Assembly: GCF_009617585.1 (NCBI RefSeq)
Contig: NZ_WIXI01000042.1
Span: 124,001 to 188,000, forward strand
DNA: 64,000 nucleotides
From: Endobacterium cereale
GTDB lineage: Bacteria; Pseudomonadota; Alphaproteobacteria; Rhizobiales; Rhizobiaceae
Reading direction: 5' to 3'
Of this stretch, positions 43,347-60,323 are shown one piece after another. Every line of letters starts with the position of its first letter. Position 1 is the first letter of the stretch. The notes under the pieces were generated by a model that searched no databases, was not told the origin of the DNA, and saw nothing but the letters and a program-made list of their open reading frames with translations. A program made the position numbers and the translations under genes.

Positions 43347-43393
43347 CAAGAGCGAGCGGATCGCAGCAATTCTAGGAGGCATGTGGGAGCGAC

Positions 43394-44182
43394 ATGAGCG
43401 AGAATGAATTCAAAAAAGCCATAGTCAACGGCAAACGGCAGATCGGCCTGTGGCTCAACACCGGTGAGGCCGTTGTTGCCGATATCGTCGGGCGCACCGG
43501 TTTCGATTGGCTGGTGATCGATGGTGAACATGGACCGAACGATCTGCGCAGCATCATGCGGCAATTGCAGGTGCTGGATGGCCTTCCCGTGGAGCCGGTG
43601 GTGCGCCCGCCAGTCGGGTCGAAATGGATGATCAAGCAATTGCTCGATATCGGCGCCCGAACGCTGCTGATCCCTATGGTCAACACGCCGGAAGAGGCTG
43701 CCGAGTGCGTGCGCTCCGTCCGCTATCCTCCGAATGGCGACCGCGGCATGGGGGCGATCGTTGCCCGCGCCTCGCGTTACGGCACGGTTCCCGATTACGC
43801 TGCAAACGCAAGCGACGAAATCTGCCTTCTGGTTCAGGTGGAGACCAAGCAAGCCCTGGAAAACCTCGATGCGATTGCCCGCACGGATGGCGTCGATGGC
43901 GTTTTCATCGGGCCGGCCGATCTTTCCGCCGATATCGGCCAGCCGCTGAGAAGCGACGAGGTTCTCTCCATGATCGATCAGGCGATCGAAACCATCGTTG
44001 CCGCCGGCAAACCGGCCGGTATCCTTACTTTCGACGAGGAGCTGAACCGCCGCTTTATCGACAAGGGCGCAAGTTTTGTCGCGGTCGGCGCCGACGTCAC
44101 GGTCCTGCTGACGACCCTGGCTTCGCTTTCGAACCGATACAAGGACGTCGATGCCGGCCCGGCGAAGGTCGCCAGCTATTGA
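43394..44182 (+). CDS. HpcH/HpaI-family aldolase
   Basis: A class II pyruvate aldolase-type enzyme of 262 aa. It shows GLWLNTGEAVVADIVGRTGFDWLVIDGEHGPND (catalytic His and Arg region), a metal site in LLVQVETKQALEN, and GPADLSADIGQP. It resembles HpaI and GarL, which cleave 2-keto-3-deoxy acids to pyruvate and an aldehyde. It lies 47 bp after lacI and 47 bp before the Dld-type gene. It could process a 2-keto-3-deoxy acid made from a co-imported sugar acid. The substrate is inferred from context only. Confidence 0.88.
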   Translation: MSENEFKKAIVNGKRQIGLWLNTGEAVVADIVGRTGFDWLVIDGEHGPNDLRSIMRQLQVLDGLPVEPVVRPPVGSKWMIKQLLDIGARTLLIPMVNTPEEAAECVRSVRYPPNGDRGMGAIVARASRYGTVPDYAANASDEICLLVQVETKQALENLDAIARTDGVDGVFIGPADLSADIGQPLRSDEVLSMIDQAIETIVAAGKPAGILTFDEELNRRFIDKGASFVAVGADVTVLLTTLASLSNRYKDVDAGPAKVASY

Positions 44183-44229
44183 TTGCGGAACGATGACGGT
44201 CGATGTCGCGGCCGGTGAAGGTGAATAAT

Positions 44230-45945
44230 ATGGACGATCTTCTCGACAAACTGCGTGATGCGGTGGGTCGGCGGCATGTGCTGACGGGCGATACCCAGAC
44301 CCGCCGGTTCCGTCAGGGCTATCGTTATGGCGGCGGGGCGGCGTTGGCCGTCGTGCGGCCGGGTACGCTCGTGGAGATGTGGCGGGCGCTGCAGGCCTGC
44401 CACCGCGCCGGTGTCGTCATCATCATGCAGGCGGCCAATACGGGACTGACGGGTGGTTCGACGCCGGTGCCGGAAGGGTATGACCGGTCCGTCGTTGTGA
44501 TCAATACGATGCGACTGAAACGGCTCGATCTTGTCAAGGGTGGTGAGCAGGTCGTGTCGCATCCGGGTGTGACGCTCGACCAATTGGAAAAGGCGCTGCG
44601 ACCGATCGGCCGGGAGCCGCATTCGGTAATCGGCTCCAGTTGCATCGGGGCTTCCGTTACGGGAGGCGTTTGCAACAATTCCGGCGGCGCGCTCATCCGG
44701 CGAGGTCCGGCCTTTACGCAATTCGCGCTTTATGCGCGCATCGATGCGGATGGCGAACTACGGCTCGTCAACAATCTCGGCATGGCGCTGGGTGAGGCTC
44801 CCGAAGATATTCTGCGGCGGCTGGATAGCGGCAGCTTCAGCGAGACGGATCTCGTCGAGGCCTCGAACCCGCACGCGTCCGACCATGAATACTGCGATCA
44901 TGTGCGCGATATTTCCGCCGACACACCGGCACGGTTCAATGCCGATCCGCGCCGTCTGTACGAGGCTTCCGGTTCAGCCGGAAAGCTCGCCGTCTTCGCG
45001 CTGCGGCTTGATACCTTTGCTGCGGACGAAGAAAGCCAAGTCTTTTACATCGGAAGTAACGATCCAGCCGAGCTTGAAACCATTCGGCGTGATATTCTCG
45101 GCGGTTTCACCAACCTGCCGATCGCCGGTGAATACATGCATCGTTCCGCTTACAAGGCCAGTGAACGGTACGGCAAGGACCTCTTTCTCTACATCCAGAC
45201 ATTTGGCACCGATAAGGTCCCGCTGGCGTTTTCATGCAAAAGCCGCTTCGACGGCATTACCGAAAAACTCGGGCTCGGCGGCACGGTCAGCGATTGCGTC
45301 CTGCAGTTCATTTTCGATCGCATGCCGAACCATCTGCCGCGCCGCATGAACGACTACCGCGACCGCTACGAGCATCATCTCCTCTTGAAAATGGGGGATG
45401 CCGGCATCGATGAGGCGCGTGTCTATCTCGCAAGGCGCTTTCCGTCTGTGAGCGGTGACTATTTCGAGTGTGACGAGAAGGAAGGCAAGGCGGCACTGCT
45501 CAACCGGTTTTCCGTCGGCGGGGCCATGGTGCGATACCGCGCCGTGCATCCCAAAACAGTCGAGGATATCGTCGCTCTCGACATTGCACTGCCACGGAAC
45601 ACGCTCGACTGGTTCGAACGCCTGCCGCCGGAAATCGCCCAGAAGATCGAGTTCACCATGTATTGCGGGCATTTTTTCTGCCATGTCCTGCATCAGGAAT
45701 ATCAGGTGAAGAAGGGGGAGGATTGCGAGGCGCTCAAGCACGATATTCTGGCACTGTTGACAGCGCGCGGTGCGCAATACCCGGCCGAGCACAATGTCGG
45801 CCATCTTTATGAAGCGGCCGAAAGCCTGCAGGCATTTTATCGCGAACTTGATCCGACCAATGCCTTCAATCCCGGCATCGGCAAGACCTCGCTCAATCTC
45901 CACTGGAAGGATGCCGGCCATCATGGCCGGCAGGAAAGAACCTGA
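44230..45945 (+). CDS. dld: quinone-dependent D-lactate dehydrogenase (Dld type)
   Basis: A 571-aa FAD enzyme of the membrane-associated respiratory D-lactate dehydrogenase family. It matches E. coli Dld along its full length, including the PCMH FAD domain (PHSVIGSSCIGASVTGG with the CNNSGG turn), RVRDIxADTPARxNADPxRL, AGEYMHR and the C-terminal YPAEHNVGHLY with GIGKTS. It oxidises D-lactate or similar D-2-hydroxyacids and passes electrons to quinone. ATG 44230 has AAGGTG upstream and gives the E. coli-like start. An in-frame ATG at 44203 has a weaker site. Confidence 0.93.
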   Translation: MDDLLDKLRDAVGRRHVLTGDTQTRRFRQGYRYGGGAALAVVRPGTLVEMWRALQACHRAGVVIIMQAANTGLTGGSTPVPEGYDRSVVVINTMRLKRLDLVKGGEQVVSHPGVTLDQLEKALRPIGREPHSVIGSSCIGASVTGGVCNNSGGALIRRGPAFTQFALYARIDADGELRLVNNLGMALGEAPEDILRRLDSGSFSETDLVEASNPHASDHEYCDHVRDISADTPARFNADPRRLYEASGSAGKLAVFALRLDTFAADEESQVFYIGSNDPAELETIRRDILGGFTNLPIAGEYMHRSAYKASERYGKDLFLYIQTFGTDKVPLAFSCKSRFDGITEKLGLGGTVSDCVLQFIFDRMPNHLPRRMNDYRDRYEHHLLLKMGDAGIDEARVYLARRFPSVSGDYFECDEKEGKAALLNRFSVGGAMVRYRAVHPKTVEDIVALDIALPRNTLDWFERLPPEIAQKIEFTMYCGHFFCHVLHQEYQVKKGEDCEALKHDILALLTARGAQYPAEHNVGHLYEAAESLQAFYRELDPTNAFNPGIGKTSLNLHWKDAGHHGRQERT

Positions 45946-46124: not shown

Positions 46125-47180
46125 TCAGTCAATCCGTTCCTCACTGACTGGATCAAAAAAGTGGACTTGCGCTGCGCTGATTGACAGGCGGATTTCCTGA
46201 CCAGCGGCGAAATCGACACGATCATTGACCACGCAGGTGATTTCCGTACCGCCGATATCGGCCAGAACATGCGTGTCGGCGCCGGTCGGCTCCACCACTT
46301 TCACAGTGGCCTTTGCGCCGTTCTGTGTGCCGATGGCAAAGCCTTGTGGTCGAATACCAACGACCAGCTCACCGCCGGCATTGCGCGGAACAGATGGCAG
46401 TACCAATCTTTCTCCACCTGACAAGAGCAGTGAACCTCCCTCAATCGTCCCGCGCAGAAAATTCATCGACGGCGAGCCTAGGAAACCCGCGACGAACATG
46501 TTTTCCGGGTGGTCGTAGAGCTCCAGCGGCGTGCCGATCTGTTCGACGCGCCCTGCCCGCAGAACCACGATACGGTCGGCCATCGTCATCGCTTCCACCT
46601 GATCGTGGGTGACGTAAACGATGGTGGAGCCGAGCCTCTGGTGAAGCGCCTTGATCTCAGCGCGCATCTGTACACGCAGCTTGGCGTCGAGATTGGAAAG
46701 CGGTTCATCGAAGAGAAAAACATCTGGATCGCGAACGATGGCGCGCCCCATGGCAACGCGCTGCCGTTGACCACCGGACAACTGCGATGGTTTGCGCTGA
46801 AGCAGCGGATTAAGTCCGAGGATCTCGGAGGCATCCGCCACCTTTTTCTCGATTTCGGCTTTTTTCATGCCGGAGATTTCCAGCGAAAAACCCATGTTTT
46901 GAGCGACCGTCATTTGCGGATAGAGCGCGTAGTTCTGGAAAACCATCGCGATGTTGCGTTCCTTCGGCGAGAGCGCATTGACGACCCGACCGGCGATTTC
47001 GATCCGCCCTCCCGATATGTCCTCAAGCCCCGCAATCATGCGCAACAGGGTAGATTTTCCGCAACCCGATGGCCCCACAAGGATGAGGAACTCGCCATCC
47101 CTGATATCGATTGAAACACCTTTGACTACTTCGAGCGCACCGAAACTCTTGCGCAGACCGGAGACCTGAACCATCGCCAT
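46125..47180 (-). CDS. ABC transporter ATP-binding protein (UgpC/MsmK type), glycoside operon
   Basis: A 351-aa ATPase with Walker [10 protein letters not shown] near 37-45, [14 protein letters not shown] near 135, Walker [13 protein letters not shown], and a TOBE domain from about 240. It is the last gene of the leftward operon, 12 bp after the glycosidase gene, and powers the CUT1 permeases encoded at 48737-50508. The gap to the convergent dld gene (45946-46124) holds nothing recognisable. Confidence 0.94.
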   Translation of the reverse strand: MAMVQVSGLRKSFGALEVVKGVSIDIRDGEFLILVGPSGCGKSTLLRMIAGLEDISGGRIEIAGRVVNALSPKERNIAMVFQNYALYPQMTVAQNMGFSLEISGMKKAEIEKKVADASEILGLNPLLQRKPSQLSGGQRQRVAMGRAIVRDPDVFLFDEPLSNLDAKLRVQMRAEIKALHQRLGSTIVYVTHDQVEAMTMADRIVVLRAGRVEQIGTPLELYDHPENMFVAGFLGSPSMNFLRGTIEGGSLLLSGGERLVLPSVPRNAGGELVVGIRPQGFAIGTQNGAKATVKVVEPTGADTHVLADIGGTEITCVVNDRVDFAAGQEIRLSISAAQVHFFDPVSEERID

Positions 47181-47192
47181 GATATTATCTCC

Positions 47193-48710
47193 TCAATGCT
47201 TTCTGCGCGGTCGTATGCGGACGGCAAGAAATGGCCTGCCTGGCAGTTTGAGCCCGAACGCCGCAGCAAACTGGTTGGTGATATGAGACCCACCGGTGAT
47301 ACGTTGTGGATGCACTTTTGGAAGCGCCGCCTTTTCCAGCGGCGAGACCGTCATGTTCCAGACGTCGATGAGATCGATCTCGTAATCACCGTCCTTCTCA
47401 GGCAGGCCAAGCGCCCATTCCACCGGCTGGTGCTCGGAGAAATAGATATAACGCACCTCGCCGTCCGCGACGGCGGACACCCGCTTGAATGTCGATCCGC
47501 GCTCCATCAGCGGGGTCAGTCCATTGGCGGCATCCTCTTCGAAGATCTTTCGCAGGAAAGCGATCCGGCTCACCGCCTCGCCGCGCAGGACCCCGCCCTT
47601 GGCCCACCAGAGTTCGTCGGCATCGTCCAGGAAGGTTTCGCCGTGGCCGATATAACCGCCGCGGCACAGGGTCAGCCAATATCGATTGACCAGTTCATGT
47701 CCGGAAATATTGCCCCATTCCTTGGCAATATTGCCTTCATATTCCGGCTCGTCGTTGATCACCGGCTTGCCGGAGGCTTCCCTCCAGGCAAGCGTCTTCT
47801 TGACGTCCCAATTCTGAATGCAGACGTGATCAACCCATGGCTTGCGGTGGTCGTAGTTCTTGTCAACATCGCCATTGTGGATGGATTTCGGATGGCGCAG
47901 CGGATCGCCCTCTTCGATGATGTGGAAGAAGCGATCCCATCGCTCCATCGGCTTCGTATCGAGAAGAAAATCGTACTCGTTCGCGAGTGACCACCAGACG
48001 TTCCGATAGGCTGCTATGCGGGCAACGATATAGCGGAGATAGCGGAAATCCTGCTCCTCCGTCATCGTGCAGTAGCCCCAGCGGTCGTAAGGATGGAAAA
48101 GGATGATATCGGCTTCGATCCCCATATCCATCAGCCGCCCGATCTGGGTTTCGAAATGCCGGAAGCATTCGAAGTTCGGCCGATCCATGTCGTGGCTGCC
48201 ATCGGCGCGCTTTTCATAAACGTCGTAGAGCGGTTCGTTGGTATTGTAGATGTAGTCCTTGGGGAAAACGCCCATGCGGATCTTGTTGAACGGACTTTCG
48301 GCCAACGTCTTCAAGGTCTGCTCCTGAAGAGCCTCCGGCTGATGGGTCCAGGCGTAACATGTCGTGCCGAACGGCAGATATGGCTTGCCGTCCGCATGGG
48401 CGAAATGGAACTGGTTGCGAACCCTGACCGGACCATTGACATTCGCACGAGCGGGGCCGACAGACAAACGGCCTTTAAGGCCCGCCAGCGGCTTGGCACT
48501 GGAGGTGGTGGCGAACGACCATTCGCCTTCTGTGTCCGGGCAGAAACGGACCTTGTAGACACCTTCGCCGTCATAAAAGCCCGGAACGGTCACCTGCCGA
48601 TTGTCGAGCGAGAACGTCGCAGCAAAGGATACCTCGAGATAAGGGTTTCCCTCTGTCGGCCCATTTGCCGAAAACTCGAAAACGTCCCAGCGGCTCGATT
48701 GTTCTGTCAT
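47193..48710 (-). CDS. cytoplasmic glycoside hydrolase-like protein (DUF5060-DUF4038-DUF5605)
   Basis: A 505-aa protein. An N-terminal beta-sandwich (DUF5060-like, residues 5-90: WDVFEFSANGPTEGNPYLEV, GFYDGEGVYKVRFCPDTEGE) is followed by a (beta/alpha)8 barrel of the DUF4038 type (about 105-375: GKPYLPFGTTCYAWTH, NKIRMGVFPK, FHPYDRWGY). A C-terminal beta domain covers about 400-505. A clan GH-A arrangement is visible, with Asn244-Glu245 (SLANEYDF) as likely acid/base and Glu321 or Glu323 (VINDEPEYEGN) as nucleophile. DUF4038 proteins include D-apiosidases (GH140). It has no signal peptide, so it cleaves sugars after import. ATG 48710 follows AAGGAG. Confidence 0.85.
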   Translation of the reverse strand: MTEQSSRWDVFEFSANGPTEGNPYLEVSFAATFSLDNRQVTVPGFYDGEGVYKVRFCPDTEGEWSFATTSSAKPLAGLKGRLSVGPARANVNGPVRVRNQFHFAHADGKPYLPFGTTCYAWTHQPEALQEQTLKTLAESPFNKIRMGVFPKDYIYNTNEPLYDVYEKRADGSHDMDRPNFECFRHFETQIGRLMDMGIEADIILFHPYDRWGYCTMTEEQDFRYLRYIVARIAAYRNVWWSLANEYDFLLDTKPMERWDRFFHIIEEGDPLRHPKSIHNGDVDKNYDHRKPWVDHVCIQNWDVKKTLAWREASGKPVINDEPEYEGNIAKEWGNISGHELVNRYWLTLCRGGYIGHGETFLDDADELWWAKGGVLRGEAVSRIAFLRKIFEEDAANGLTPLMERGSTFKRVSAVADGEVRYIYFSEHQPVEWALGLPEKDGDYEIDLIDVWNMTVSPLEKAALPKVHPQRITGGSHITNQFAAAFGLKLPGRPFLAVRIRPRRKH

Positions 48711-48736
48711 TTTCGGCTCCTTGATATGATTGCTGT

Positions 48737-49612
48737 TCAGCCTTTGACCGCGCCTGATGTCAGTCCGCTGACGAAGTATCTCTGGAAGATCATGTAGACG
48801 AGTACGGCGGGGATGACTGTCATGGCGATCGCCGCATTCAATTGACCGTAGTCGGTGGAAAACTGCCCCTGGAATGACATCAGCCCGAGCGGCAGTGTCC
48901 ACATATGGCGGTCCTGAAGAAGCACCAGCGCCATCGCGAACTCGTTCCAGGTGGACACGAAATCGAGTATCAGTAGCGCCGCCAGAACCGGCAGTGAGAT
49001 CGGCAAGAATATTCGGCGAAAGACCGTCACATGCGAAGCGCCATCGATAAGCGCCGCCTCCGACAGCTCCTTCGGAACCGCCTTGAAGAAACCATGCAGG
49101 ATGAAGACCTGATACGGCACCCCGAAGGCGAGGTAGGGAAGAATCACGCCGGGATAGGTATCGATCAGCCCAAAGCCGTTCACCAGCGTGAAGATCGGTG
49201 CCAGCATGACCTGGAACGGGATCATCGCGCCGAACAGGAAAAACAGCAGAAGCAGCTTTCCGAATTTCAGCCTGATCCTTGCAAGCGCATAAGCGGCCAT
49301 CGCCGAAAATATCAGGCCGAGCGGCACTTTGATGACAGTGATGATGGCACTGTTGGTAAAGGTCGTCGCAAAATTGCCGCGCGCCCAAGCCCCTGAAAAA
49401 TTGCTCCAAGCAACCGTTTCGGGCGGTGCGAAGGCGCTCGTCGCCATCACCTCGGCATTGGATTTCAAGGCGGTGAATGCGATGAGGACGACCGGTGCGA
49501 TCCACACCAGAGCGAAGGTGACAAGCACGATCCAGAGAAGGATCAGGAAAGGGTCCCTGCGCCGTTTGACCAGCACCATATCGTCTTCGAAGCGTGTCCC
49601 CGAGGCCGTCAT
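48737..49612 (-). CDS. CUT1 ABC transporter permease (MalG type), glycoside operon
   Basis: A 291-aa six-helix permease (LLWIVLVTFALVWIAPVVLIAF first). The EAA loop reads LSEAALIDGASHVTVFRRIFLP. It overlaps the MalF-type gene by 4 bp and precedes the glycosidase gene by 26 bp. Its place next to a glycosidase suggests it imports an oligosaccharide or glycoside rather than a free monosaccharide. Confidence 0.93.
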   Translation of the reverse strand: MTASGTRFEDDMVLVKRRRDPFLILLWIVLVTFALVWIAPVVLIAFTALKSNAEVMATSAFAPPETVAWSNFSGAWARGNFATTFTNSAIITVIKVPLGLIFSAMAAYALARIRLKFGKLLLLFFLFGAMIPFQVMLAPIFTLVNGFGLIDTYPGVILPYLAFGVPYQVFILHGFFKAVPKELSEAALIDGASHVTVFRRIFLPISLPVLAALLILDFVSTWNEFAMALVLLQDRHMWTLPLGLMSFQGQFSTDYGQLNAAIAMTVIPAVLVYMIFQRYFVSGLTSGAVKG

Positions 49613-50508
49613 TCGCTGGCTCCTTCATCGCGTTGCGACCAGCGCAGGTAAGGTACGACAATGGTCAGGGTAACAAGCAGGAGGATGACCGAGATGGCGG
49701 ATCCTCTGCCGAAATCGAAAATCTGCATTGACTGCATGAAAGCCCACAAAGCCAACATCTGCGTGGATTGCGCCGGTCCGCCTCCGGTCATGCCGTAGAC
49801 GATGTCGAATGCCTTCAGCGAGGAGATTGTCGACAGAACCAAGACAATGGCGATGGTGACGCGTAGCGCCGGCAGCGTCACATGCTTGAAACTCTGCCAT
49901 CGGTTGGCACCATCGATGCGCGCAGCCTCGACCAGCGAGCGATCGACGCTCTGTAGGCCCGCCAGAAACAGCACCATAGAGAAGCCCACATATTGCCAGG
50001 TATAGGCGACGAACATCGAATATAGGGCGATCTCACGGTCACCAAGCCAGTCCTTGATCCATGCCTGCAGGCCAATATTGGTCAGAACCTGATTGAACAG
50101 TCCGAAGAACGGATCGTACATCCACTTCCACATTGTCGCGACGGCGATCGGAGCGATGATAACCGGCAGATAATAGATCGCCCGCATCGGCACTCGGCCG
50201 AACAGTTGCTCATTGAGGCCGAGCGCCAGAAGCAGGCCGATCGTCGGTGGAAAGAGAACCGCAAGCAAGGTCCATGTTATGGTGTTGCGCAAGGCAATCC
50301 AGAACACCGGGTCTTTCGTCAGGATATACTGGTAGTTCTCCAGTCCAACCCATTCTCTTTGCGGATCCAGACCATTCCAGTGCTGGAAGCTGAGAAACAC
50401 CACCTCGATCATTGGCCATATCGCGAAGGTCGCATAGACAACGAGCGCGGGACCAATCAGCAGAAGCGCTTGCGTCCGCGAGGACTGCATGACTTTGGAA
50501 TTCAACAT
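49609..50508 (-). CDS. CUT1 ABC transporter permease (MalF type), glycoside operon
   Basis: A 299-aa six-helix permease (ALLLIGPALVVYATFAIWPMIEVVFLSF first). Its EAA loop is LVEAARIDGANRWQSFKHVTLP. An in-frame Met7 is an alternative start. A very strong hairpin (50554-50578) separates it from the binding-protein gene upstream. Confidence 0.93.
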   Translation of the reverse strand: MLNSKVMQSSRTQALLLIGPALVVYATFAIWPMIEVVFLSFQHWNGLDPQREWVGLENYQYILTKDPVFWIALRNTITWTLLAVLFPPTIGLLLALGLNEQLFGRVPMRAIYYLPVIIAPIAVATMWKWMYDPFFGLFNQVLTNIGLQAWIKDWLGDREIALYSMFVAYTWQYVGFSMVLFLAGLQSVDRSLVEAARIDGANRWQSFKHVTLPALRVTIAIVLVLSTISSLKAFDIVYGMTGGGPAQSTQMLALWAFMQSMQIFDFGRGSAISVILLLVTLTIVVPYLRWSQRDEGASE

Positions 50509-50553
50509 GGGAAACCCGCCTGTTCAAATCCTGACCTGAGTGCAGGTCAACGG

Positions 50554-50578
50554 TCTCCGCGGCTTCAAGCCGCGGAGA
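50554..50578 (-). promoter_or_regulatory. intercistronic stem-loop after the binding-protein gene
   Basis: Arms TCTCCGCGGCTT (50554-50565) and AAGCCGCGGAGA (50567-50578) are perfectly complementary around a single C, so the real hairpin has a loop of about 5 nt. No T-run follows on the minus strand. Confidence 0.75.
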
Positions 50579-50597
50579 GATCAGGGTGCCTTGCGGC

Positions 50598-51836
50598 TTA
50601 CTTCTTGCGGTTGCCTATAAACGTCTGCATCGCTGCTGCGGCTGCCTGGGGCTCTATCCTGGCTGCGGCGACATCGTTGATGACACGGAAGTATTCGGTT
50701 GTCACATCAAGCGGGAATGCCTGGTCACCGTTCACAAAAGTGCCCTTCGCATTGGCGAAGATTTCGGTCCACTCCTTGTGCATGGCAGAGGCATCGGCCT
50801 TCAACTTCACGTCCTTATTGACGGATAGCGCGCCGAACACCCCGGCGATCTCGGTCTGGAACTCGGTAGATGTGAAGGAATTGATGAATTCCGCCGCCAG
50901 TTCTGCCTTCTTTGTTTTCGACGAAACATAGAAATATTCCGCGAATCCGTAGAGGCGATCCGTGCCGTTGGGGAATGGGAAGACGTCGTAGTCATCGACG
51001 CTGCCACCCTCCTTGATCTGCGACACCAGCCAGTCGCCCTCGAGCATCATCGCTGCGCGCTTGGCAAGGAACAGCGTGAAGGACTGTTTCTGATCGACGC
51101 CCATGAACGGTGACAGGATGTAGTTCTGCCCCCACATTTGCATCTCTGCGAAGGCCTTGGTGGCGCACTCCGTCTTGCCCCAATCCGCCTTCAGCGATTT
51201 CAGCTGATCGTGAACGTCAGCGCCGCAGGTGGTTTCCAGGATTTCATCCATCAGGCGCATCAGATGCCAATTGACGGAACCGCCAAAGGTGAAAGCCGGA
51301 ATGCCCGCCTCTTTCAGCTTTTTAGCGGCGGCGACCAACTCATCGTAGGTCTTTGGTTCCTGTGTGATGCCGGCCTTCTCGAACATCGCCTTGTTATAAT
51401 AGACGCCTTCGCCTGAGAAGCGGAACGGCACGCCGTGCTGCCCCGACCCATAACTCTTGGAGAAAGCCAGAGACGGCGCCGTAAGCCGGTCGTTCCATCC
51501 GTATTTGGCGTAATCGGCCGTAATGTCCTTGCTGAGCCCAGCCTTGACATACTCGCCACCCAGGCCAAGGCCCGCCCAGCTCATATAGACGTCCGGACCT
51601 TTGTCGGACCCGGCAGCGACACGCAATGCGGTTTTGTGTTCATCGACACCACGCATGACGATTTCAACGTTCACGCCGGGATGGGATTTTTCGAAATTAT
51701 CAGCTGCGGTCTGAAGCGCCTTTACCTGCGATTCCGCAGAATAACTGATGGTCCAGACCGTCAGATCGTCAGCCTGGGCAGATGTTGCGATTGCCGCCAA
51801 AGCGGACGCCGCCATAAATCTCGCGAAAGTTCTCAT
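50598..51836 (-). CDS. CUT1 extracellular solute-binding protein, glycoside operon
   Basis: A 412-aa periplasmic receptor with a Sec signal (MRTFARFMAASALAAIATS, cleavage near AQA-DDL). The mature body is family-1: DLTVWTISYSAESQVKALQTAADNFEKSHPGVNVEI, FSGEGVYYNKAMFEKAGIT and MMLEGDWLVSQI. ATG 51836 is chosen because GGAGGAGATCTT precedes it. A start 15 bp upstream overlaps the ribosome-binding site. A 127-bp gap upstream with a repeated decamer suggests its own promoter. Ligand inferred: the glycoside cleaved by the DUF4038 enzyme. Confidence 0.92.
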   Translation of the reverse strand: MRTFARFMAASALAAIATSAQADDLTVWTISYSAESQVKALQTAADNFEKSHPGVNVEIVMRGVDEHKTALRVAAGSDKGPDVYMSWAGLGLGGEYVKAGLSKDITADYAKYGWNDRLTAPSLAFSKSYGSGQHGVPFRFSGEGVYYNKAMFEKAGITQEPKTYDELVAAAKKLKEAGIPAFTFGGSVNWHLMRLMDEILETTCGADVHDQLKSLKADWGKTECATKAFAEMQMWGQNYILSPFMGVDQKQSFTLFLAKRAAMMLEGDWLVSQIKEGGSVDDYDVFPFPNGTDRLYGFAEYFYVSSKTKKAELAAEFINSFTSTEFQTEIAGVFGALSVNKDVKLKADASAMHKEWTEIFANAKGTFVNGDQAFPLDVTTEYFRVINDVAAARIEPQAAAAAMQTFIGNRKK

Positions 51837-51864
51837 AAGATCTCCTCCCAAAGATCGCTGATGC

Positions 51865-51904
51865 TTCTGTCAATACTGTCAGATCATTTTCGAATTCTGT
51901 CAAT
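51865..51904. repeat. direct repeat TTCTGTCAAT, 30-bp period, upstream of the binding-protein gene
   Basis: TTCTGTCAAT occurs at 51865-51874 and 51895-51904, exactly 30 bp apart (about three helical turns), with a partial copy ACTGTCAG at 51875-51882. Read leftward each copy contains ATTGACAG, similar to a -35. This is a candidate operator/promoter for the CUT1 genes inside the larger operon. Confidence 0.45.
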
Positions 51905-51963
51905 TAGTTTCATATGTTTTTGTATCTTTGGTTTTTTCAATTTTCCGAGAATATTTGTAAGTG

Positions 51964-52926
51964 TCACACAGATTTGCGCGCGATCGCCTTGCGGGCCGAT
52001 TTGGCAATTCCGGAAGCTGTCAGGCCATAGTGCTTGAAGAGCCATTCCACGGCACCCGTCGGGACAAAACCCGGAAATCCCATGCGCTCGACAGGTACCG
52101 GAAAGTGCGCGGACGTATGCTCCGCCACCGCACCGCCGAGCCCGCCATGAATATTGGCCTCCTCGACGGTGACGATTGCACCAGTCTCGCTTGCGGCTTG
52201 GGAAATCGCCACGCCATCGAGCGGACTGATGGTCGCCATATTGAGAACCCGCACGGAAATGCCATCTGCAGCAAGCTCTTCAGCGGCGCTCACGGCAAGA
52301 TGCACCATCGTTCCGCATGCAATGACAGTGACATCGCCACCCTCGCGCACCATCTCCGCCTTACTAGGTTGAAACCTGCGATTCTCCACCAAAAGATCGG
52401 GCACTGGCATTCTGCTGAGGCGGATATAGACCGGCCCCACATGGGCAGCGGCCCATTTCACCGCCTCGGCGGTTTCCCAGGCGTCCGCGGGAGCAATGAC
52501 CGTGATATTGCTCAACGGACGCAGCCAGGCGAAGTCCTCGATCGAGTGATGCGTCGGCCCCAGTTCGCCATAGGCTACGCCCGAGGACTGGCCAACAAGT
52601 TTTACGTTGAAATTGGCGTAGGCAATATCGGCCTTGACCTGTTCCAGCGCGCGACCGGTGAGAAAACACGACGCGGCAGACACGAATGGAATGCGGCCAC
52701 CATTGGCAAGACCCGCGCCGACCCCAACCATCGTTTGTTCGGCGATACCAACATTGATGAGCCGATCCGGAAACGCCTTCTGAAAACCTCCGAGCTTTGA
52801 GGACCCGACGGAATCGTTCACAACGGCGACGATGCGCGGATCTTCTGCGGCAAGCGCCTCGATTGTGCGTGCCCAGGCGTCACGGCAATCGTGAAAGCCC
52901 TGCTGTTTTGCTGCCGGAGCGGCCAT
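51964..52926 (-). CDS. transketolase C-terminal subunit (split transketolase)
   Basis: A 320-aa protein holding the pyrimidine-binding (about residues 10-180: INVGIAEQTMVGVGAGLANGGRIPFVSAASCFLTGRALEQVK) and C-terminal (about 195-315: VIACGTMVHLAVSAAEELAADGISVRVLNM) domains of transketolase. The Glu that activates thiamine diphosphate is in VGIAEQ. It needs the N-terminal subunit encoded by the overlapping upstream gene (TGATG stop/start). Split transketolases are often pathway-specific, for example for apulose 4-phosphate or sulfosugars. Confidence 0.93.
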   Translation of the reverse strand: MAAPAAKQQGFHDCRDAWARTIEALAAEDPRIVAVVNDSVGSSKLGGFQKAFPDRLINVGIAEQTMVGVGAGLANGGRIPFVSAASCFLTGRALEQVKADIAYANFNVKLVGQSSGVAYGELGPTHHSIEDFAWLRPLSNITVIAPADAWETAEAVKWAAAHVGPVYIRLSRMPVPDLLVENRRFQPSKAEMVREGGDVTVIACGTMVHLAVSAAEELAADGISVRVLNMATISPLDGVAISQAASETGAIVTVEEANIHGGLGGAVAEHTSAHFPVPVERMGFPGFVPTGAVEWLFKHYGLTASGIAKSARKAIARKSV

Positions 52927-53747
52927 CAGGCGAGTTCCTCCATAGCAATGGCGAGTTGCTCTGCATTTGGCACGCCGTGGTGCCAGGACGCCTTGTTCTC
53001 CATGAACGAAACACCTTTGCCCTTGATCGTATTGGCGATGACGCACAAAGGCTTCGATCGCCCACCCGCGGGTTCGGACAGGACAGCCATGAGCGCTTCG
53101 ACGTCGTGCCCGTCGACCATTGCGACATCCCAGCCGAAAGCACGAAACTTGTCGTCGAGCGGATCGAGGCCGTTGGTTTCTTCGGTCCCCATTCCCTGCT
53201 GCAGCCGGTTGCGATCGACAATAAGCGTCAGCTTGCCGAGTTTGCGGTGACCGGCAGTCATCGCCGCCTCCCAGTTGGAGCCTTCCTGCAATTCGCCGTC
53301 CCCGGTCAAAACGAATGTCCTGTAGTCGCTGTTCGTCAACTGGCCGGAAATCGCAATACCGACCGCAACCGGCATTCCGTGGCCGAGCGGCCCGGTATTG
53401 GTCTCGACACCGGGCAAATAATTGCGGTTCGGGTGGCCATTCAATTTGGACTGCGGCTGCATATAGGTCGCAAGCCAGTCTTCCGGATAATAACCTGCGG
53501 CGCAAAGAGCCGTGTAGAGCGCGCCGGTGGCATGGCCCTTCGACATGATGAAGCGATCCCGCTCCGCCATGTCCGGTTGTTGTGAATCATAGCGCATGAC
53601 CCCGAAATAAAGGGTCGCGACGATATCGATCGCCGAAAAGTCTCCACCGGGATGCCCGAGTTGGGCATCGAAGACCATCGTGAAAGCCTTCCGGCGCATC
53701 CACAACGCTTTGTCGCGGATGCCGCCGGCAATATCATTCTTCAACAT
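52926..53747 (-). CDS. transketolase N-terminal subunit (split transketolase)
   Basis: A 273-aa protein with the thiamine-diphosphate domain: FDAQLGHPGGDFSAIDIVATLYF, SKGHATGALYTALCAAGYYP, GPLGHGMPVAVGIAIS and the cofactor motif GDGELQEGSNWEAAMTAGHRKLGKL ending with Asn in DRN. It is about 40 percent of a full transketolase and complements the C-terminal subunit. It lies 44 bp downstream of the TIM-barrel isomerase gene. Confidence 0.93.
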   Translation of the reverse strand: MLKNDIAGGIRDKALWMRRKAFTMVFDAQLGHPGGDFSAIDIVATLYFGVMRYDSQQPDMAERDRFIMSKGHATGALYTALCAAGYYPEDWLATYMQPQSKLNGHPNRNYLPGVETNTGPLGHGMPVAVGIAISGQLTNSDYRTFVLTGDGELQEGSNWEAAMTAGHRKLGKLTLIVDRNRLQQGMGTEETNGLDPLDDKFRAFGWDVAMVDGHDVEALMAVLSEPAGGRSKPLCVIANTIKGKGVSFMENKASWHHGVPNAEQLAIAMEELA

Positions 53748-53791
53748 GGCGAAAAGCCTTTCAGTGCCAAATTGCCTGTTGGCGAGCCAAT

Positions 53792-54772
53792 TTACATCGC
53801 GCCGAACAAAGCCTTCTGGGCAATTTTCAAGGCGCCGATGGCGTCATGACGGCTTTGCGCCTCGCGTAGAGCGTCGATATCGAGAGCCTCAAGCCCCTTG
53901 TCCGCCGCCTTGAGGAAATCGATGGCATGATTGGCGGTTTCGACGCTGTCTTCGCGGAACGGAAACTGGTCGAGTTGCCAGACGCCTTCCCACTTGTTCT
54001 TGCGCAGCACGTAGAAGAACTCGAAAAGCTCGATCGGGTGCAGGCTGCCCGCGACGAGGTCGTCATCCCAGGAACGATAATTGTCGTTGACGTCCATGCC
54101 GAACAGGCGACCGTAATCGATGGCGAGCTGGGCGCTGTCGGCGGCCGATTCCCCACCCATGATGGCATGGCCGAAATCGAGCAGGATGCCAACATTGGGC
54201 AGGCCGATCTTTTCGATGCCGAGGAGGGTGCGGGCGACCGAACCGAAACTCATGCGCACACGCGGTTCGCGCGGCTTGTATTCGATGACGAATTTGAGGT
54301 CGGGGTTTTCGCTGGCAAGCTGACCGACGCCATCCAGCGAATGTTTCCACAACGTGCCGTAATCCACCTGGAACGGATAGTCCCAACCATCCTGACCCGG
54401 CCAAAGTTTTACGTAATCCGCACCGAAATAACGGACCTGATCGCAAGCTTCCGTGACCACTTCATGCGTGCGGCGGCGCACGCCGGCATCCGGGTTGGTG
54501 AAGGAGCCTTTGACGAATTCGCGGGTGTAGATTTCCGGCGTGATGCCGATAACGCCGAGCTTGTTGCGATCCAGCGCCTCCTTCACCTGGGCGTTCGAAA
54601 AATCACCGCCGAAGAAGGGATAGTTGATATCCACCACCGACAGATCCCTGACCTGACCGGCAAGATCGATCGCGTCTATAACGCTGCGCGGTGTTCCATA
54701 ACCGTCCGTCGCGTAGCGATCGAGATAAGTCGCGAAATGCCAGATACCGGCGCCAAAACGTTGTGTCGTCAT
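53792..54772 (-). CDS. xylose-isomerase-like TIM-barrel sugar isomerase/epimerase
   Basis: A 326-aa AP-endonuclease-2/xylose-isomerase-like barrel. Metal-binding candidates appear in [42 protein letters not shown] (Glu), [15 protein letters not shown] (Asp, His), [20 protein letters not shown] (Asp) and [11 protein letters not shown] (Asp). This set matches cation-dependent ketose/aldose isomerases rather than DNA repair enzymes. As the first gene of an operon with split transketolase and a DUF4038 glycosidase, it could be a D-apiose isomerase or a rhamnose/xylose isomerase relative. I cannot decide the substrate. Confidence 0.85.
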
Positions 54773-56107
<1,335 letters not shown>

Positions 56108-56122
56108 CGCAACCGCCGTTTT

Positions 56123-56148
56123 CCACCCGGAGCAAAGCCTCCGGGTGG
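56123..56148 (+). promoter_or_regulatory. intercistronic stem-loop after the CUT2 binding-protein gene
   Basis: CCACCCGGAG (56123-56132) and CTCCGGGTGG (56139-56148) form a perfect 10-bp stem with loop CAAAGC, 15 bp after the stop. The weak T content after it (CTCTTGCTTTC) suggests partial termination at most. Confidence 0.75.
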
Positions 56149-56177
56149 CTCTTGCTTTCAAGAAAGTGCGGATACCC

Positions 56178-56801
56178 ATGAAGATCACGAGCCTGCTTGC
56201 GGCAAGCCTGCTTGCCGCGTCCCTTTCCGGCTGCAAGCTGGTCAAGACCGATACGGCTGAGGCCGGCGGCACCGCTGCCGATCCCATTGCCGCAATCGTC
56301 GAGACGACTTTCGACACCAAACTCGTTCCCGCCCTGAGCGAGAAGGCGGTTGATCTTGCGACCCTGAGGGACGCCATCAAGACCGGGCTGGACAAGGCCG
56401 GCGAAAGCCATGGCACCCGCGTCGGCGGCGCCGGTGGCGGCTGGAATTTCCCGGTGAAGGGAAGTGCGACGGTTACCGAGGAAAACCGCGCGTCAAAAGC
56501 CGCGACGGCCGATATCGACCTCGATGGCGACGGCCAGGCGGATGCGACATTGCAGCTTGGCCCGGTCATCAAGGGCACGGCCCTGCGCGACACGACACCG
56601 CTCTACGATTTCTCGACTTTTCGCGATCAGATCGAATATGCAAAACTCGGCCGCGCCCTGAACGACAAGGCCATATCCAAGCTTCCGGGCGCCGATACCC
56701 CGCTTAAGGGCAAGCGCGTGAATTTCCTTGGCGCGGTGGTGATCCGCTCCGCCAGCGAAAAGCCGCTTGTCATGCCGGTCTCGATAGAGGTGGCGCCATG
56801 A
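56178..56801 (+). CDS. DUF2291 periplasmic lipoprotein of the CUT2 operon
   Basis: A 207-aa lipoprotein. The signal peptide ends in ASLSGC with the acylated Cys near residue 19. The body fits DUF2291 (VETTFDTKLVPALSEKAVDL, GWNFPVKGSATVTEENRASKAATADIDLDGDG, INFLGAVVIRS-like phrase VNFLGAVVIRS). DUF2291 genes occur between binding-protein and ATPase genes of CUT2 importers; their role is unknown. ATG 56178 starts the signal peptide, and the frame upstream is not protein-like. The stop overlaps the ATPase start by 4 bp. Confidence 0.88.
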   Translation: MKITSLLAASLLAASLSGCKLVKTDTAEAGGTAADPIAAIVETTFDTKLVPALSEKAVDLATLRDAIKTGLDKAGESHGTRVGGAGGGWNFPVKGSATVTEENRASKAATADIDLDGDGQADATLQLGPVIKGTALRDTTPLYDFSTFRDQIEYAKLGRALNDKAISKLPGADTPLKGKRVNFLGAVVIRSASEKPLVMPVSIEVAP

Positions 56802-58342
56802 GCGACATCGCGCCTGCCGAAGCGCATCCGATCGGCCTGAAGATCCGCAACGGATCGAAAATCTATCCCGGCACGCAGGCACTGAAAGACGTCGACTTCG
56901 ACCTGCGAATGGGTGCCGTCAATGTGCTGGTCGGCGAAAACGGCGCCGGAAAATCGACGCTGATGAAGGTGATCGCCGGCGTCGAACAATTGAATGGCGG
57001 CACGATCGAACTCGATGGCGCCGAGGTGACTTTTGCCGACAAGTCCGATGCGGCGAAACATGGCGTCGGCATCGTATTCCAGGAACTGAACCTCTTTCCC
57101 AACCTGACGGTGGCGGAAAACATCTTTGTCGGCCACGAAAAGACACGCGGTGGCATTCATATCGACCGGCGGGCACAGGTGACGGCAGCCCGGGCGCTGA
57201 TGAAGCGGCTCGAACAGGATATCGATCCCGACGCGCCGCTTGGAAACCTGCGGATCGGCCAGCAGCAGATCGTCGAAATTGCCAAGGCGCTGGCGGAAAA
57301 CGCCCGCATCCTGATCCTTGACGAGCCGACATCGGCGCTTTCGGCCACTGAAGTCGAAGTGCTGTTTCGCGTCATCAACGACCTCAAGAAACAGGGCGTC
57401 GGCATTGTCTATATCTCGCACCGGCTGGAAGAGCTGATCCGCATCGGCGATTACATCACCGTTCTGCGCGATGGCGCCATTACCGGATCACGCTCCATGC
57501 AGGGCGTCGATATTCCGTGGATCGTCGCCAACATGATCGGCAGCGCGTCGAAGGATTTTCCGAAAACCGTGGGTCACGACATGGGTGGAGAAGTGTTTCG
57601 GGTGGAAAACATCTGCCTGCCGAGTCCTGCGGGCGGTTATGCCGTCGATCACATGTCGCTTTCCGTGCGCGAGGGCGAGATCGTCGGCCTTTACGGGCTG
57701 ATGGGCGCCGGCCGTTCCGAACTGCTGGAATGCATCATGGCCCAGCACCCCAATTCCTCCGGCCAGCTTTTTATCGGTGGCAAACCGCTCAAGGAAAGAA
57801 GTGTGGCGGGGCGGATCCGGCGCGGACTGGCGTTGATCCCCGAGGATCGCAAGCGTGATGGCCTTGTGCAGATCATGACCATCCGCGAAAACCTGACCTT
57901 GTCGTCGCTTGCCGATTTTACCCGTGGTTTTCACCTCAGCCTCAAGGCCGAGGCGGCAAGAGCGGCTGAATTCGTCAAGCGCATGGCGATCAAGATCGCC
58001 AGCCTCGAACATCCCGTCTCCAGCCTTTCCGGCGGCAACCAGCAGAAGGTGGTGATCGGCAAGGCGCTGATGACGAAGCCAAAAATCCTGCTGATGGACG
58101 AACCGTCGCGCGGCATCGATATCGGCGCCAAGGCGGAAATCTTTCGCACCATGCGGCACCTCGCTGCCGATGGCCTCGGCATTCTTTTCGTCACCTCCGA
58201 TCTGGAAGAGGTTCTGGCCCTTTCCGATCGCATTCTCGTCATGGCGAATGGCCGGCTGACCGGGCAGTTTCCGGCCGGCGCCAGTGCGGCGGACGTCGTT
58301 TCTGCGGCAACGCCCAATCTCAAGAAGGTTGAACTCACATGA
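56798..58342 (+). CDS. CUT2 sugar ABC transporter ATP-binding protein (RbsA family)
   Basis: A 514-aa tandem ATPase. The first domain has GENGAGKSTLMKV (about residue 47) and LILDEPTSALSATE, with the signature altered to LRIGQQQIVEIAKAL. The second has a degenerate P-loop (GLMGAGRSELLE), a normal LSGGNQQKVVIGKAL signature and LLMDEPSRGIDIGAKAE. This asymmetry is normal for RbsA-type proteins. It overlaps both neighbours by 4 bp. Confidence 0.95.
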   Translation: MSDIAPAEAHPIGLKIRNGSKIYPGTQALKDVDFDLRMGAVNVLVGENGAGKSTLMKVIAGVEQLNGGTIELDGAEVTFADKSDAAKHGVGIVFQELNLFPNLTVAENIFVGHEKTRGGIHIDRRAQVTAARALMKRLEQDIDPDAPLGNLRIGQQQIVEIAKALAENARILILDEPTSALSATEVEVLFRVINDLKKQGVGIVYISHRLEELIRIGDYITVLRDGAITGSRSMQGVDIPWIVANMIGSASKDFPKTVGHDMGGEVFRVENICLPSPAGGYAVDHMSLSVREGEIVGLYGLMGAGRSELLECIMAQHPNSSGQLFIGGKPLKERSVAGRIRRGLALIPEDRKRDGLVQIMTIRENLTLSSLADFTRGFHLSLKAEAARAAEFVKRMAIKIASLEHPVSSLSGGNQQKVVIGKALMTKPKILLMDEPSRGIDIGAKAEIFRTMRHLAADGLGILFVTSDLEEVLALSDRILVMANGRLTGQFPAGASAADVVSAATPNLKKVELT

Positions 58343-59421
58343 GCAGCATCGACGCCGCAGGCAACGTCAAGACCGTTATCGGAGGGCACAGATCCCGCAC
58401 ATCGGCGCTATTGCTGCTCCTGCACATGCGCACTTTCGTGGCTCTCATCCTCGTCTTCACCTTCTTTGCGATCGCGGCCCCGAACTTTCTGTCGATGGCC
58501 AACATGCTGATCATTTCCAAACATGTGGCGCTGAACGCGCTGCTCGCGATCGGCATGACGTTTGTCATCATCGCCGGCGGCATCGACCTGTCTGTCGGCT
58601 CGATTGTCGGGCTGTGCGCCATGGTGGCGGGTTATCTGGTGCTTTACGGCATCGATCTCGGCTTTCTCGGTGTCGCCTACAGCATCCAGTTCAACACGAT
58701 CGAAATCTGCATGATCGTGCTGGTCGTGGGCATTTTCATAGGCTGGATAAACGGGCTTTTGATCACCAAGCTGAATGTCGCCCCCTTCATCGCGACACTC
58801 GGCACGCTTTATGTCGCGCGCGGTGCCGCCCTCTTGTTTTCCGAGGGGCGAACCTTTCCCAATCTTTCCGGCAACCCTGAATACGGCTCGGACACGTTTC
58901 GCATCATCGGCTCCGGCACATTTCTCGGCCTGCCGGTATCGGTGTGGATCATGGTCGCGGTAGCGCTAGTGGCCGCCTATTTTGCAACCCGCACCCCGCT
59001 CGGACGGCATATCTACGCCGTTGGCGGCAACGAGCGTGGGGCAGCCCTTTCCGGTGTGCGCGTCGATCGCATCAAACTGTTCGTCTACATGTTTTCCGGC
59101 CTCTGCGCCGCCTTCGTCGGCCTGATCATCTCATCGCAACTGCAGGCGAGCCATCCGGCAACAGGTGAAACATTCGAGCTGAACGCGATTGCGGCGGCCG
59201 TTCTCGGCGGAACGTCGATGTCCGGTGGGCGGGGGCGGATTGCCGGCACGATCGTCGGCGCTTTCGTCATAGGCATATTAGCCGACGGCCTGATCATGAT
59301 GGGCGTCTCGTCCTTCTGGCAGACTGTGATCAAGGGTCTCGTCATCATCGCCGCCGTCGTCGTCGATCAGGTGCAGCAGAAACTGCAGGCCCGTGTGGTG
59401 CTGCAGCAGAACGCCAACTGA
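58339..59421 (+). CDS. CUT2 sugar ABC transporter permease (RbsC family)
   Basis: A 360-aa inner-membrane permease with about 8-10 helices. Signature segments are IAGGIDLSVGSIVGLCAMVAGYL, WINGLLITKLNVAPFIATLGTLYVARG, YAVGGNERGAALSGVRVDRIKLFVYMFSG and GGTSMSGGRGRIAGTIVGAFVIGIL. Some 35 extra residues lie around SIQFNTIEICMIVLVVGIF compared with E. coli RbsC. It starts within the ATPase stop. Confidence 0.95.
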   Translation: MSSIDAAGNVKTVIGGHRSRTSALLLLLHMRTFVALILVFTFFAIAAPNFLSMANMLIISKHVALNALLAIGMTFVIIAGGIDLSVGSIVGLCAMVAGYLVLYGIDLGFLGVAYSIQFNTIEICMIVLVVGIFIGWINGLLITKLNVAPFIATLGTLYVARGAALLFSEGRTFPNLSGNPEYGSDTFRIIGSGTFLGLPVSVWIMVAVALVAAYFATRTPLGRHIYAVGGNERGAALSGVRVDRIKLFVYMFSGLCAAFVGLIISSQLQASHPATGETFELNAIAAAVLGGTSMSGGRGRIAGTIVGAFVIGILADGLIMMGVSSFWQTVIKGLVIIAAVVVDQVQQKLQARVVLQQNAN

Positions 59422-59466
59422 GCGTTTGATGACGCCAACCGATGCTTGTAAGAGGTGGAGACAGAG

Positions 59467-59482
59467 TCGATCAGTTTCGATT
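59467..59482 (-). promoter_or_regulatory. third DeoR-type box, in front of the repressor gene
   Basis: TCGATCAGTTTCGATT (59467-59482) is the inverse of AATCGAAACTGATCGA and matches the box at 55100-55115 at 15 of 16 positions. It lies 32 bp before the chosen deoR start, implying autoregulation. Confidence 0.6.
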
Positions 59483-59513
59483 GATTGCGAATTCCGGGTT
59501 CAGGCAGGATCAG

Positions 59514-60323
59514 ATGGAAGCGAAAGACGAGCAGGACGCGTCGGAATCGATGGTCGGACTTTTGTCCGAACCCAGGCGCCGACGCATTCTCGAATGGCTT
59601 CAGGAGGAAGGTTCGGCCCGCGTCAGGGAACTGGCCGGTGCCTTCAGGGTATCGGAAGCCACCATCCGCCAGGATCTCGAAAAGCTTGAAAACGACGGTT
59701 TCATCACCCGCGAGCACGGCGGCGCCTACCTGAATTCGATCGCCCCCCAGACAGGCACCATGACGCTCCATCATCAGGAGAACATGGACAAGAAGCGTCG
59801 GATCGGCGCGCTTGCGGCCAGTCTGGTCAAGGATGGGGAAACGCTGATCCTCGATGCCGGCACGACGACGACCGAAATTGCCACAAGGCTGACCAGCCGC
59901 CGCGACCTGACGCTGATCACCAATGCGCTGAATATCGCGATCATTCTGGGATCGGTGCCGAGCTTTGCGGTTCACATGCCAGGCGGCCAGTTCAAGTCAC
60001 CGACGCTTTCGCTTTCCGGTGACAAGTCGGTCGAATATTTTCGCAACATCTTTGCCGGAAAACTGTTTCTGGCGACGGCAGGCGTGGCGCTCGATGCCGG
60101 CCTGACCTATCCGAGCTTTGCCGATCTGCAGCTGAAGGAAGCGATGATCAAGGCGGCGGCGCATGTCTATCTTGTCGCCGATTCCACCAAGATCAATCGT
60201 TCGTCCTTTACCCGTCTCGGCTCTCTGGACGTCATCCACTCCTTCATCACCGATGACGGCATTTCCGACCGGGATGCAAAAGAGTTCGAAAAGCGCGGCA
60301 TCGAATTGCTGATCGCGAAGTAG
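59514..60323 (+). CDS. DeoR/GlpR-family transcriptional repressor
   Basis: A 269-aa regulator. The winged helix-turn-helix is at about residues 15-70 (RRILEWLQEEGSARVRELAGAFRVSEATIRQDLEKLENDGFITREHGG). The DeoR sensor domain follows (LAASLVKDGETLILDAGTTTTEIATRL, LITNALNIAIIL, and ADSTKINRSSFTRLGSLDVI), which binds a sugar phosphate. I chose ATG 59514, as a start at 59442 would place the operator box inside the coding region. It follows the permease gene by 92 bp and most likely represses both sugar operons through the three related boxes. Confidence 0.92.
   Translation: MEAKDEQDASESMVGLLSEPRRRRILEWLQEEGSARVRELAGAFRVSEATIRQDLEKLENDGFITREHGGAYLNSIAPQTGTMTLHHQENMDKKRRIGALAASLVKDGETLILDAGTTTTEIATRLTSRRDLTLITNALNIAIILGSVPSFAVHMPGGQFKSPTLSLSGDKSVEYFRNIFAGKLFLATAGVALDAGLTYPSFADLQLKEAMIKAAAHVYLVADSTKINRSSFTRLGSLDVIHSFITDDGISDRDAKEFEKRGIELLIAK

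Follow-up and report, generated by a model that had tools for sequence, protein, structure and literature searches.

Which sugar do the two divergent gene blocks at 46125-60323 of this Endobacterium cereale window (the whole stretch of 64,000 nucleotides analysed here) take up and degrade, and by what routes does it enter the cell? An earlier note on this DNA had proposed the branched pentose apiose, or a similar sugar, arriving both free and as a glycoside. Apiose is a widespread, little-studied branched plant sugar, present in the pectin rhamnogalacturonan II and in apiosylated flavonoids. We find that the 13 intact genes of the two blocks very probably serve to take up and degrade apiose. 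The fuller reading, in which the locus is for the use of D-apiose, offers two ways of entry and has its kinase supplied by a second module, we hold at a probability of roughly 0.74. Every gene of the earlier inventory is present and open; each block is given below in order of transcription.

Minus-strand block:
53792-54772, minus strand: putative D-apiose isomerase, ApsI type (PF01261 TIM barrel; 60% identity to PDB 3ktc)
52926-53747, minus strand: split transketolase N half, AptA type (PF00456; GDG...N thiamine-diphosphate motif, by eye)
51964-52926, minus strand: split transketolase C half, AptB type (PF02779 and PF02780)
51837-51963, no strand: putative kinase-deletion point, whose flanks align to both sides of the FGGY (AplK-type) kinase gene of relatives
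50598-51836 (start by eye), minus strand: CUT1 substrate-binding protein, predicted glycoside binder (PF01547)
49609-50508, minus strand: CUT1 permease 1 (PF00528)
48737-49612, minus strand: CUT1 permease 2 (PF00528)
47193-48710, minus strand: predicted cytoplasmic apiosidase, 505 amino acids (DUF5060, PF13204 'Apiosidase-like' and DUF5605)
46125-47180, minus strand: CUT1 ATPase, UgpC/MalK type (NF008653 above cut-off)
Plus-strand block:
55166-56107, plus strand: CUT2 binding protein, RbsB-like, predicted D-apiose binder (239/286 identical to PDB 5ibq/4ry0)
about 56178-56801, plus strand: DUF2291 lipoprotein (PF10054)
56798-58342, plus strand: CUT2 ATPase (PF00005, two stretches)
58339-59421, plus strand: CUT2 permease (PF02653)
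59442-60323 (true start probably 59514, by eye), plus strand: DeoR-family regulator (PF08220 and PF00455)

To identify the sugar, we turned to the CUT2 importer, whose binding protein has 84% identity to RHE_PF00037 of Rhizobium etli, the protein of both PDB entries, of which 5ibq is, we take it, a structure holding apiose. We then surveyed 151 genomes of the family for this protein (E <= 1e-90) and for D-apionate lactonase, ApnL (model NF049900; match line E <= 1e-100, curated cut-off 750 bits), the mark of the oxidative D-apiose/apionate pathway, whose dehydrogenase is named ApsD. The binding protein occurs in 28 genomes, and in 22 of these an ApnL match lies within 10 kb of it, 20 of them above the curated cut-off; the match is farther away in G038 and on another contig in G094. 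No ApnL match at that line was found in the remaining four: G000 (the window genome), G046, G100 and G120. In all four, an isomerase gene adjoins the importer instead, encoding a TIM barrel in three and a protein of L-fucose isomerase (FucI) type in G046. Compared with the apiose cluster of Escherichia coli SE15, the binding protein and ATPase are each 47% identical, the permease 56% and the DUF2291 protein 28%. By its orthology to RHE_PF00037 and its linkage to apiose genes, the plus-strand importer is, on sequence grounds, one for apiose, and free D-apiose would enter the cell through it.

The enzymes of the minus-strand block point to the same sugar. The TIM barrel is identical at 192 of 320 positions (60%) to PDB 3ktc (426 bits), presumably a Pectobacterium enzyme, and copies 95-96% identical occupy the same slot in the Rhizobium clusters L008 and L009. 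Its scores on isomerase models for other sugars are low, at best 71 bits for xylose and 61 for rhamnose (cut-offs 447 and 531). The transketolase halves are 46% (AptA) and 42% (AptB) identical to those of SE15. An ApsI-type isomerase and a split AptA/AptB transketolase are thus both present, as in a cluster for the apiose transketolase pathway, and the TIM barrel is a probable D-apiose isomerase. It would turn D-apiose into D-apulose, an FGGY kinase would make apulose 4-phosphate, and the split transketolase would transfer two carbons from this to a C3 acceptor, with dihydroxyacetone phosphate and xylulose 5-phosphate as products. A D-apiose isomerase, kinase and transketolase pathway (ApsI, AplK and AptA/AptB) with this transketolase reaction was reportedly described by Carter et al. 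in 2018 (Nat Chem Biol 14:696). PMC13001218 names the SE15 apiose cluster with aplK, aptA and aptB, and states that strains with an SE15-type cluster grew on apiose, SE15 itself not being among those tested. The window shares with the E. coli cluster the RbsB-type CUT2 importer and DUF2291 protein; it differs in having no local kinase, in its additional CUT1 importer and cytoplasmic glycosidase, and in a DeoR in place of a SorC-type regulator.

Several clusters lack the TIM barrel and carry a protein of about 500 amino acids in its place. The L-fucose isomerase C-terminal domain (PF02952) is above cut-off in L026, L028, L029 and L033. The protein of L057, of which L054 and L055 hold 97% identical copies, is more distant (22.4 bits against a cut-off of 29.3), and relatives 61-70% identical to the L026 protein, which is encoded at L026:4052-5542, occur in L073, L060/L078 and L082. 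The last of these was found by prediction: in G046, coordinates indicated a gap of fitting size between the binding protein and the transketolase, and the locus fetched (L082) held a FucI-type gene there, in the order DeoR-CUT2 // FucI type-TktN-TktC-FGGY. We do not class these proteins as sulfoquinovose isomerases: the four scanned, from L026, L033, L057 and L073, reach 88-106 bits on that model, whose cut-off is 700. From its position as a replacement within the cluster, we infer that the FucI-type protein is a candidate apiose isomerase.

One gene expected of such a pathway is missing. The earlier note had seen no sugar kinase in the window, and this was borne out: no FGGY kinase was found on the window's contig, and in particular none lies between TktC and the CUT1 binding-protein gene. 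In L008 and L009 (the clusters of Rhizobium CC-CFT758 and SL42), L020, L023, L033, L036, L078, L079 and L082, an FGGY kinase follows TktC. The end of the window's transketolase gene and its CUT1 promoter align to either side of the kinase in L020 and L036, with about 30 unmatched bases at the window junction versus about 1.6 kb in L020. Since the kinase is also present in more distant clusters, we read the gap as a loss, and the window has probably lost the gene locally.

A kinase-free cluster could be taken to indicate a transketolase pathway for another ketose, such as that of sulfoquinovose or of a rhamnose- or hamamelose-like sugar. The sulfo-transketolase pathway for sulfoquinovose needs no sugar kinase and is defined by an SftI-type isomerase or a sulfoquinovosidase, and the FucI-type replacement isomerases bear the distant likeness to SftI given above. 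However, an AplK-type kinase occupies this very gap in near relatives, members of the binding-protein family are encoded close to apionate lactonase, and the TIM barrel combines its likeness to 3ktc with low xylose and rhamnose isomerase scores. Moreover, the window isomerase gave no match to the SftI model at E <= 0.001, matching PF01261 instead, and neither a sulfoquinovosidase nor an SftI-type isomerase is present in the cluster, the glycosidase being of PF13204. Membership of a sulfoquinovose or rhamnose clade, the outcome that the earlier note had set against its own proposal, is therefore not what sequence comparison favours: model scores fall far under their cut-offs, and where the importer family occurs, apionate lactonase tends to accompany it. 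We regard another ketose as very improbable and the assignment of the pathway to apiose as strong.

We sought a substitute kinase among the seven FGGY_N matches elsewhere in the host genome (6.1 Mb, 51 contigs). The FGGY protein on contig C46 was rejected, being above both glycerol kinase cut-offs. Contig C10 encodes a module (L063; C10:186001-206000) in the order SorC // TktN-TktC-FGGY-CUT2-SDR-TpiA, with a second short-chain dehydrogenase/reductase (SDR) beyond SorC. Relative to SE15, its SDRs are 60 and 65% identical, SorC 45%, the kinase 42.5% and the transketolase halves 48 and 37%. In the SE15 cluster, two oxidoreductases are proposed to replace the isomerase, according to PMC13001218. 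A kinase tree, from which L010-L012 and L014-L019 were left out as duplicate or unneeded stretches, groups the C10 kinase with that of a Streptomyces isomerase-transketolase operon (95/90), on long branches. It is plausible, judging by these comparisons, that the C10 kinase (G000:C10, L063:9780-11297) serves the window pathway in place of the lost gene and would make its apulose 4-phosphate. Such sharing looks workable because other genomes keep a cassette of this kind alongside an SDR-type module: in G100 (L075), an isomerase cassette without its own kinase adjoins one, and in G120 (L074, L083) cassette and module lie on different contigs.

Alternatively, loss of the kinase gene may have left the window pathway non-working, only import and glycoside cleavage remaining useful and feeding the second module. 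The C10 module does encode a transketolase, a kinase and two dehydrogenases of its own. Conversely, the remaining window genes are all open, and the isomerase cassette has been kept in the genomes just described, where an SDR module adjoins it (L075) or lies on another contig (L074, L083). We consider a defunct pathway unlikely and favour kinase sharing. SDR-type modules of this composition (SorC-TktN-TktC-FGGY-SDR-CUT2) were observed in the rhizobial loci L063, L075, L083, L084, L086 and L088, and may represent an isomerase-free route to apulose.

The second entry route rests on the CUT1 importer and the glycosidase encoded between its permease and ATPase genes. The glycosidase matches PF13204 at 64.5 bits (cut-off 26.5). 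It was aligned with 33 of 39 reference sequences, L021, L023, L024, L028, L036 and L055 having been dropped as near-duplicates of those kept; L052, L058, L059 and L062, although among the 43 homologue loci described below, were not among the references. Across the resulting 34 sequences, N244, E245 and E321 do not vary, in agreement with the intact Asn244-Glu245 site of the earlier note. That the protein has no signal peptide was likewise confirmed, by eye; inspected in the same way, the homologues from Alphaproteobacteria and Bacillota lack one too, and those of L041, L042, L043 and L050 have one.

An AlphaFold2 model of the glycosidase (mean confidence, pLDDT, 93.2) is closest in fold to BVU_0362 (PDB 4n0r; 35-36% identity, TM score 0.87), a putative glycoside hydrolase of the same family whose title names no activity. 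Next in line are the glycoside hydrolase family 5 (GH5) mannanase ManDH5, the GH5-labelled Bacteroides protein 4qfu, BT_1012 and the GH140 apiosidase 8t9w. A profile search also finds 8t9w, at 3e-5, and places E321 on its Glu and E245 on its Asp. The window protein has in common with the GH140 apiosidases BT_1012 and 8t9w the PF13204-type catalytic barrel and, with 8t9w, a second Glu in a P-x4-E-x2-Y setting; unlike them, it has Asn-Glu245 in place of Asp, carries DUF5060 and DUF5605, lacks a signal peptide and is only 13-17% identical. The catalytic residues of BT_1012 are Asp187 and Glu284, and 17.3% of PF13204 has Glu at the first site, as given in PMC4032388. Membership of GH140 was rejected because Glu245, invariant in all 34 sequences, occupies the catalytic Asp column. 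By its first catalytic residue, then, the predicted enzyme is not of GH140, though it resembles apiosidases.

We predict that the DUF5060-PF13204-DUF5605 proteins form a distinct family of cytoplasmic apiosidases. Small apiosides (e.g. apiosyl-glucosides or apiobiose) would enter by the CUT1 importer, and the glycosidase, of clan GH-A type, would cleave them in the cytoplasm using Glu245 and Glu321; its probable role is to release apiose intracellularly from small plant compounds. Known structures did not yield the CUT1 ligand, since the PDB relatives of the binding protein are weak and mixed, the best being a xylo-oligosaccharide binder at 82 bits. In the open literature searched, we found no paper tying this glycosidase family to apiose use.

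To what extent does the CUT1-glycosidase module travel with apiose genes? The neighbourhoods of 43 glycosidase homologues were inspected, an isomerase, transketolase half, FGGY kinase, FucI-like protein, apiose-type CUT2 importer or ApnL in view being scored as an apiose-type gene. Nineteen of the 43 had at least one, although in L058 this is a transketolase half only and in L025 and L039 only parts of the CUT2 importer (in L039 with a DeoR). Genes of the transketolase route accompany the module in L020, L022-L024 and L036 (Rhizobium and relatives), L026 and L028 (Martelella), L029, L032 (Bradyrhizobium), L033 (Roseibium), L060/L078 (Rubellimicrobium) and L073, and beyond the Alphaproteobacteria in L050 (Confluentibacter) and in L054, L055 and L057 (Lachnospiraceae). 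The oxidative route accompanies it on plasmid pRL12 of Rhizobium johnstonii 3841, where the CUT2 permease, Gfo/Idh, ApnL, DhaK, DhaL, CUT1, glycosidase and ATPase genes follow one another on one strand (ApnL 1060.9 bits, cut-off 750). The glycosidase of this row is RL_RS34825, and the CUT2 importer is of the same family as that of the window. The same row is found in G128 (ApnL 1032.9 bits), and a metagenome-assembled genome (L030) has a weaker ApnL under the cut-off (512.5 bits). Across lineages, gene order and strand vary and the partners stay constant. We link the module to apiose because it is found beside two biochemically different routes whose common compound is apiose. Comparable sets of genes thus recur across other alphaproteobacteria, and the earlier description of these parts as rarely together does not hold. 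The D-apiose reading itself, in contrast, gains from the linkage of binding protein and ApnL, the identity to 3ktc, the likeness to SE15 and the occurrence of the module beside both routes.

Co-occurrence within the family sample was then counted, at E <= 1e-60 for the glycosidase and E <= 1e-80 for the AptA-type half. The glycosidase is present in 9 of the 151 genomes. An AptA-type half is present in all nine, against 28 genomes overall (hypergeometric p = 8e-8; 4e-7 without the window genome). ApnL is above cut-off in seven of the nine versus 26 of 151 (6e-5; 2e-5 without the window genome), and the CUT2 binding protein occurs in six of the nine versus 28 of 151 (1e-3; 5e-3 likewise). The two glycosidase genomes without ApnL are that of the window and G117 (L073), in which the transketolase, kinase and FucI-type isomerase genes adjoin the glycosidase. 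A wider count, in which a split transketolase matched at 1e-40 in 21 of the 22 whole genomes scanned, which stand behind 22 of the 43 glycosidase loci, was given no weight, because split transketolases are common outside the Proteobacteria. In the L021 genome, a split transketolase copy 89% identical lies outside the stretch fetched.

The two blocks also appear to share their regulation. The earlier note had mentioned a 16-bp box, and a shared box, of 17 bp, is indeed real, with one copy at each divergent promoter:

54926-54942, plus strand: regulatory box on the minus-strand promoter side, exact TTTCGATCTCTTTCGAT
55101-55117, minus strand: regulatory box on the plus-strand promoter side, TTTCGATCTCTTTCGAT with one mismatch

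Allowing up to three mismatches, the window holds five matches versus 0.70 expected, a number reached in none of 100 shuffles, and these two are the only sites in the whole genome at one mismatch or fewer. Comparable sites were identified by eye in the equivalent promoters of L020, L036 and L008 and, less clearly, L009. The DeoR regulator would repress both blocks through this box.

A number of results weigh against the reading of a two-entry apiose locus with a shared kinase. The title of 4ry0 names a ribose transporter protein, and the CUT2 importer may also take ribose. No FGGY kinase bearing the box was found genome-wide at one mismatch or fewer, the C10 binding protein is only 28% like that of SE15, and the kinase tree does not separate kinases for apulose from those for glycerol: it groups the C46 protein, which is glycerol-kinase-like, with the L050 and L057 kinases and leaves that of SE15 outside. 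The p values above are optimistic, the genomes being related and the 1e-80 line having been chosen after the list was seen. Apiose genes lie within 20 kb in only two of the eight other glycosidase loci fetched from the family (L068 and L073). L066, L067 and L069-L072 have none within that distance, though their genomes have ApnL, and the link between glycosidase and apiose in this sample is mostly at the level of the genome. The L040 genome (Acuticoccus) gave no AptA-type half at 1e-40. The glycosidase occurs in 91 plasmid records, of which two were examined in context, pRL12 and a plasmid of Aureimonas AU20; in the latter the module adjoins aromatic-catabolism genes. Lastly, 24 of the 43 homologue loci, many on short contigs, show no apiose-type gene in view.

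That last count also favours a different view of the glycosidase, in which the module acts on glycans or glycosides that carry apiose but releases a different sugar or an aglycone, for instance by cutting a glucoside or galacturonide bond, and its linkage to apiose genes reflects a common plant source. The Asn-Glu site is GH5-like rather than the Asp of GH140, the GH5 mannanase ManDH5 is among the near folds, and in L008 a GH127-type module stands beside the apiose genes instead. Yet the module accompanies both apiose routes, which have apiose as their common compound. In addition, a comparison of open reading frames across 16 loci gave no widely recurring family beyond the module, other ABC transporter parts and a ROK-type gene (six loci), most flanking frames being identified no further. 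Release of another sugar or an aglycone is the less probable account, at perhaps one chance in a few; apiose as what the glycosidase releases is likely.

Several neighbouring genes may be recorded here. Upstream of the locus in window coordinates, 39949-42210 encodes an L-threonate dehydrogenase and a 3-oxo-tetronate kinase, both above NCBIfam cut-offs, and 42327-45945 a LacI regulator, an HpaI-type aldolase and a D-lactate dehydrogenase, which together with the preceding genes form an adjoining C4 sugar-acid block. A gene labelled by eye as a ROK-like regulator precedes the CUT1-glycosidase module in L066 and L069-L073. GH127-type enzymes (the beta-L-arabinofuranosidase family) occur near apiose genes or the module at L008:20463-22379, L071 about 1623 and L013:8296-10251, perhaps as an alternative glycoside arm. 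Sde182 nucleoside-hydrolase-like proteins adjoin apiose-type genes at L050:8328-9761 (Confluentibacter, PF07632) and L010:15002-16456 (Croceibacterium), the latter annotated 'nucleoside hydrolase-like domain'. The glycosidase match G094:C12:20493-21989 (L066) was reported with one internal TAG, yet a 504-amino-acid frame is open there; the TAG may sit at the edge of the match. Finally, a paralogue of RibB type (3,4-dihydroxy-2-butanone 4-phosphate synthase; PF00926 in L063) is found repeatedly next to apiose or SDR-type transketolase modules, at the following sites:

L008:7507-8139
L009:18688-19332
L032 about 11614
L063:15538-16182
L075 about 10719
L085 about 533
L087 about 1407

The locus is best described as one for an established apiose pathway, to which a conserved arm for glycoside uptake, formed by the CUT1 importer and the predicted signal-less glycosidase, is a new addition. 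We see about an even chance that a broader proposal holds in all its parts: that a new family of intracellular apiosidases with a dedicated CUT1 importer serves both apiose routes in Alphaproteobacteria and has relatives next to genes of apiose type in Lachnospiraceae as well as, in a signal-peptide form, in one Flavobacteriaceae species, and that the FucI family provides a second, unrelated apiose isomerase replacing ApsI in otherwise alike operons. If true, this would give the Pfam domain set DUF5060/DUF5605 a testable function and could provide enzymes for trimming plant glycosides. It would also explain how root bacteria take apiosides whole and cleave them inside the cell.

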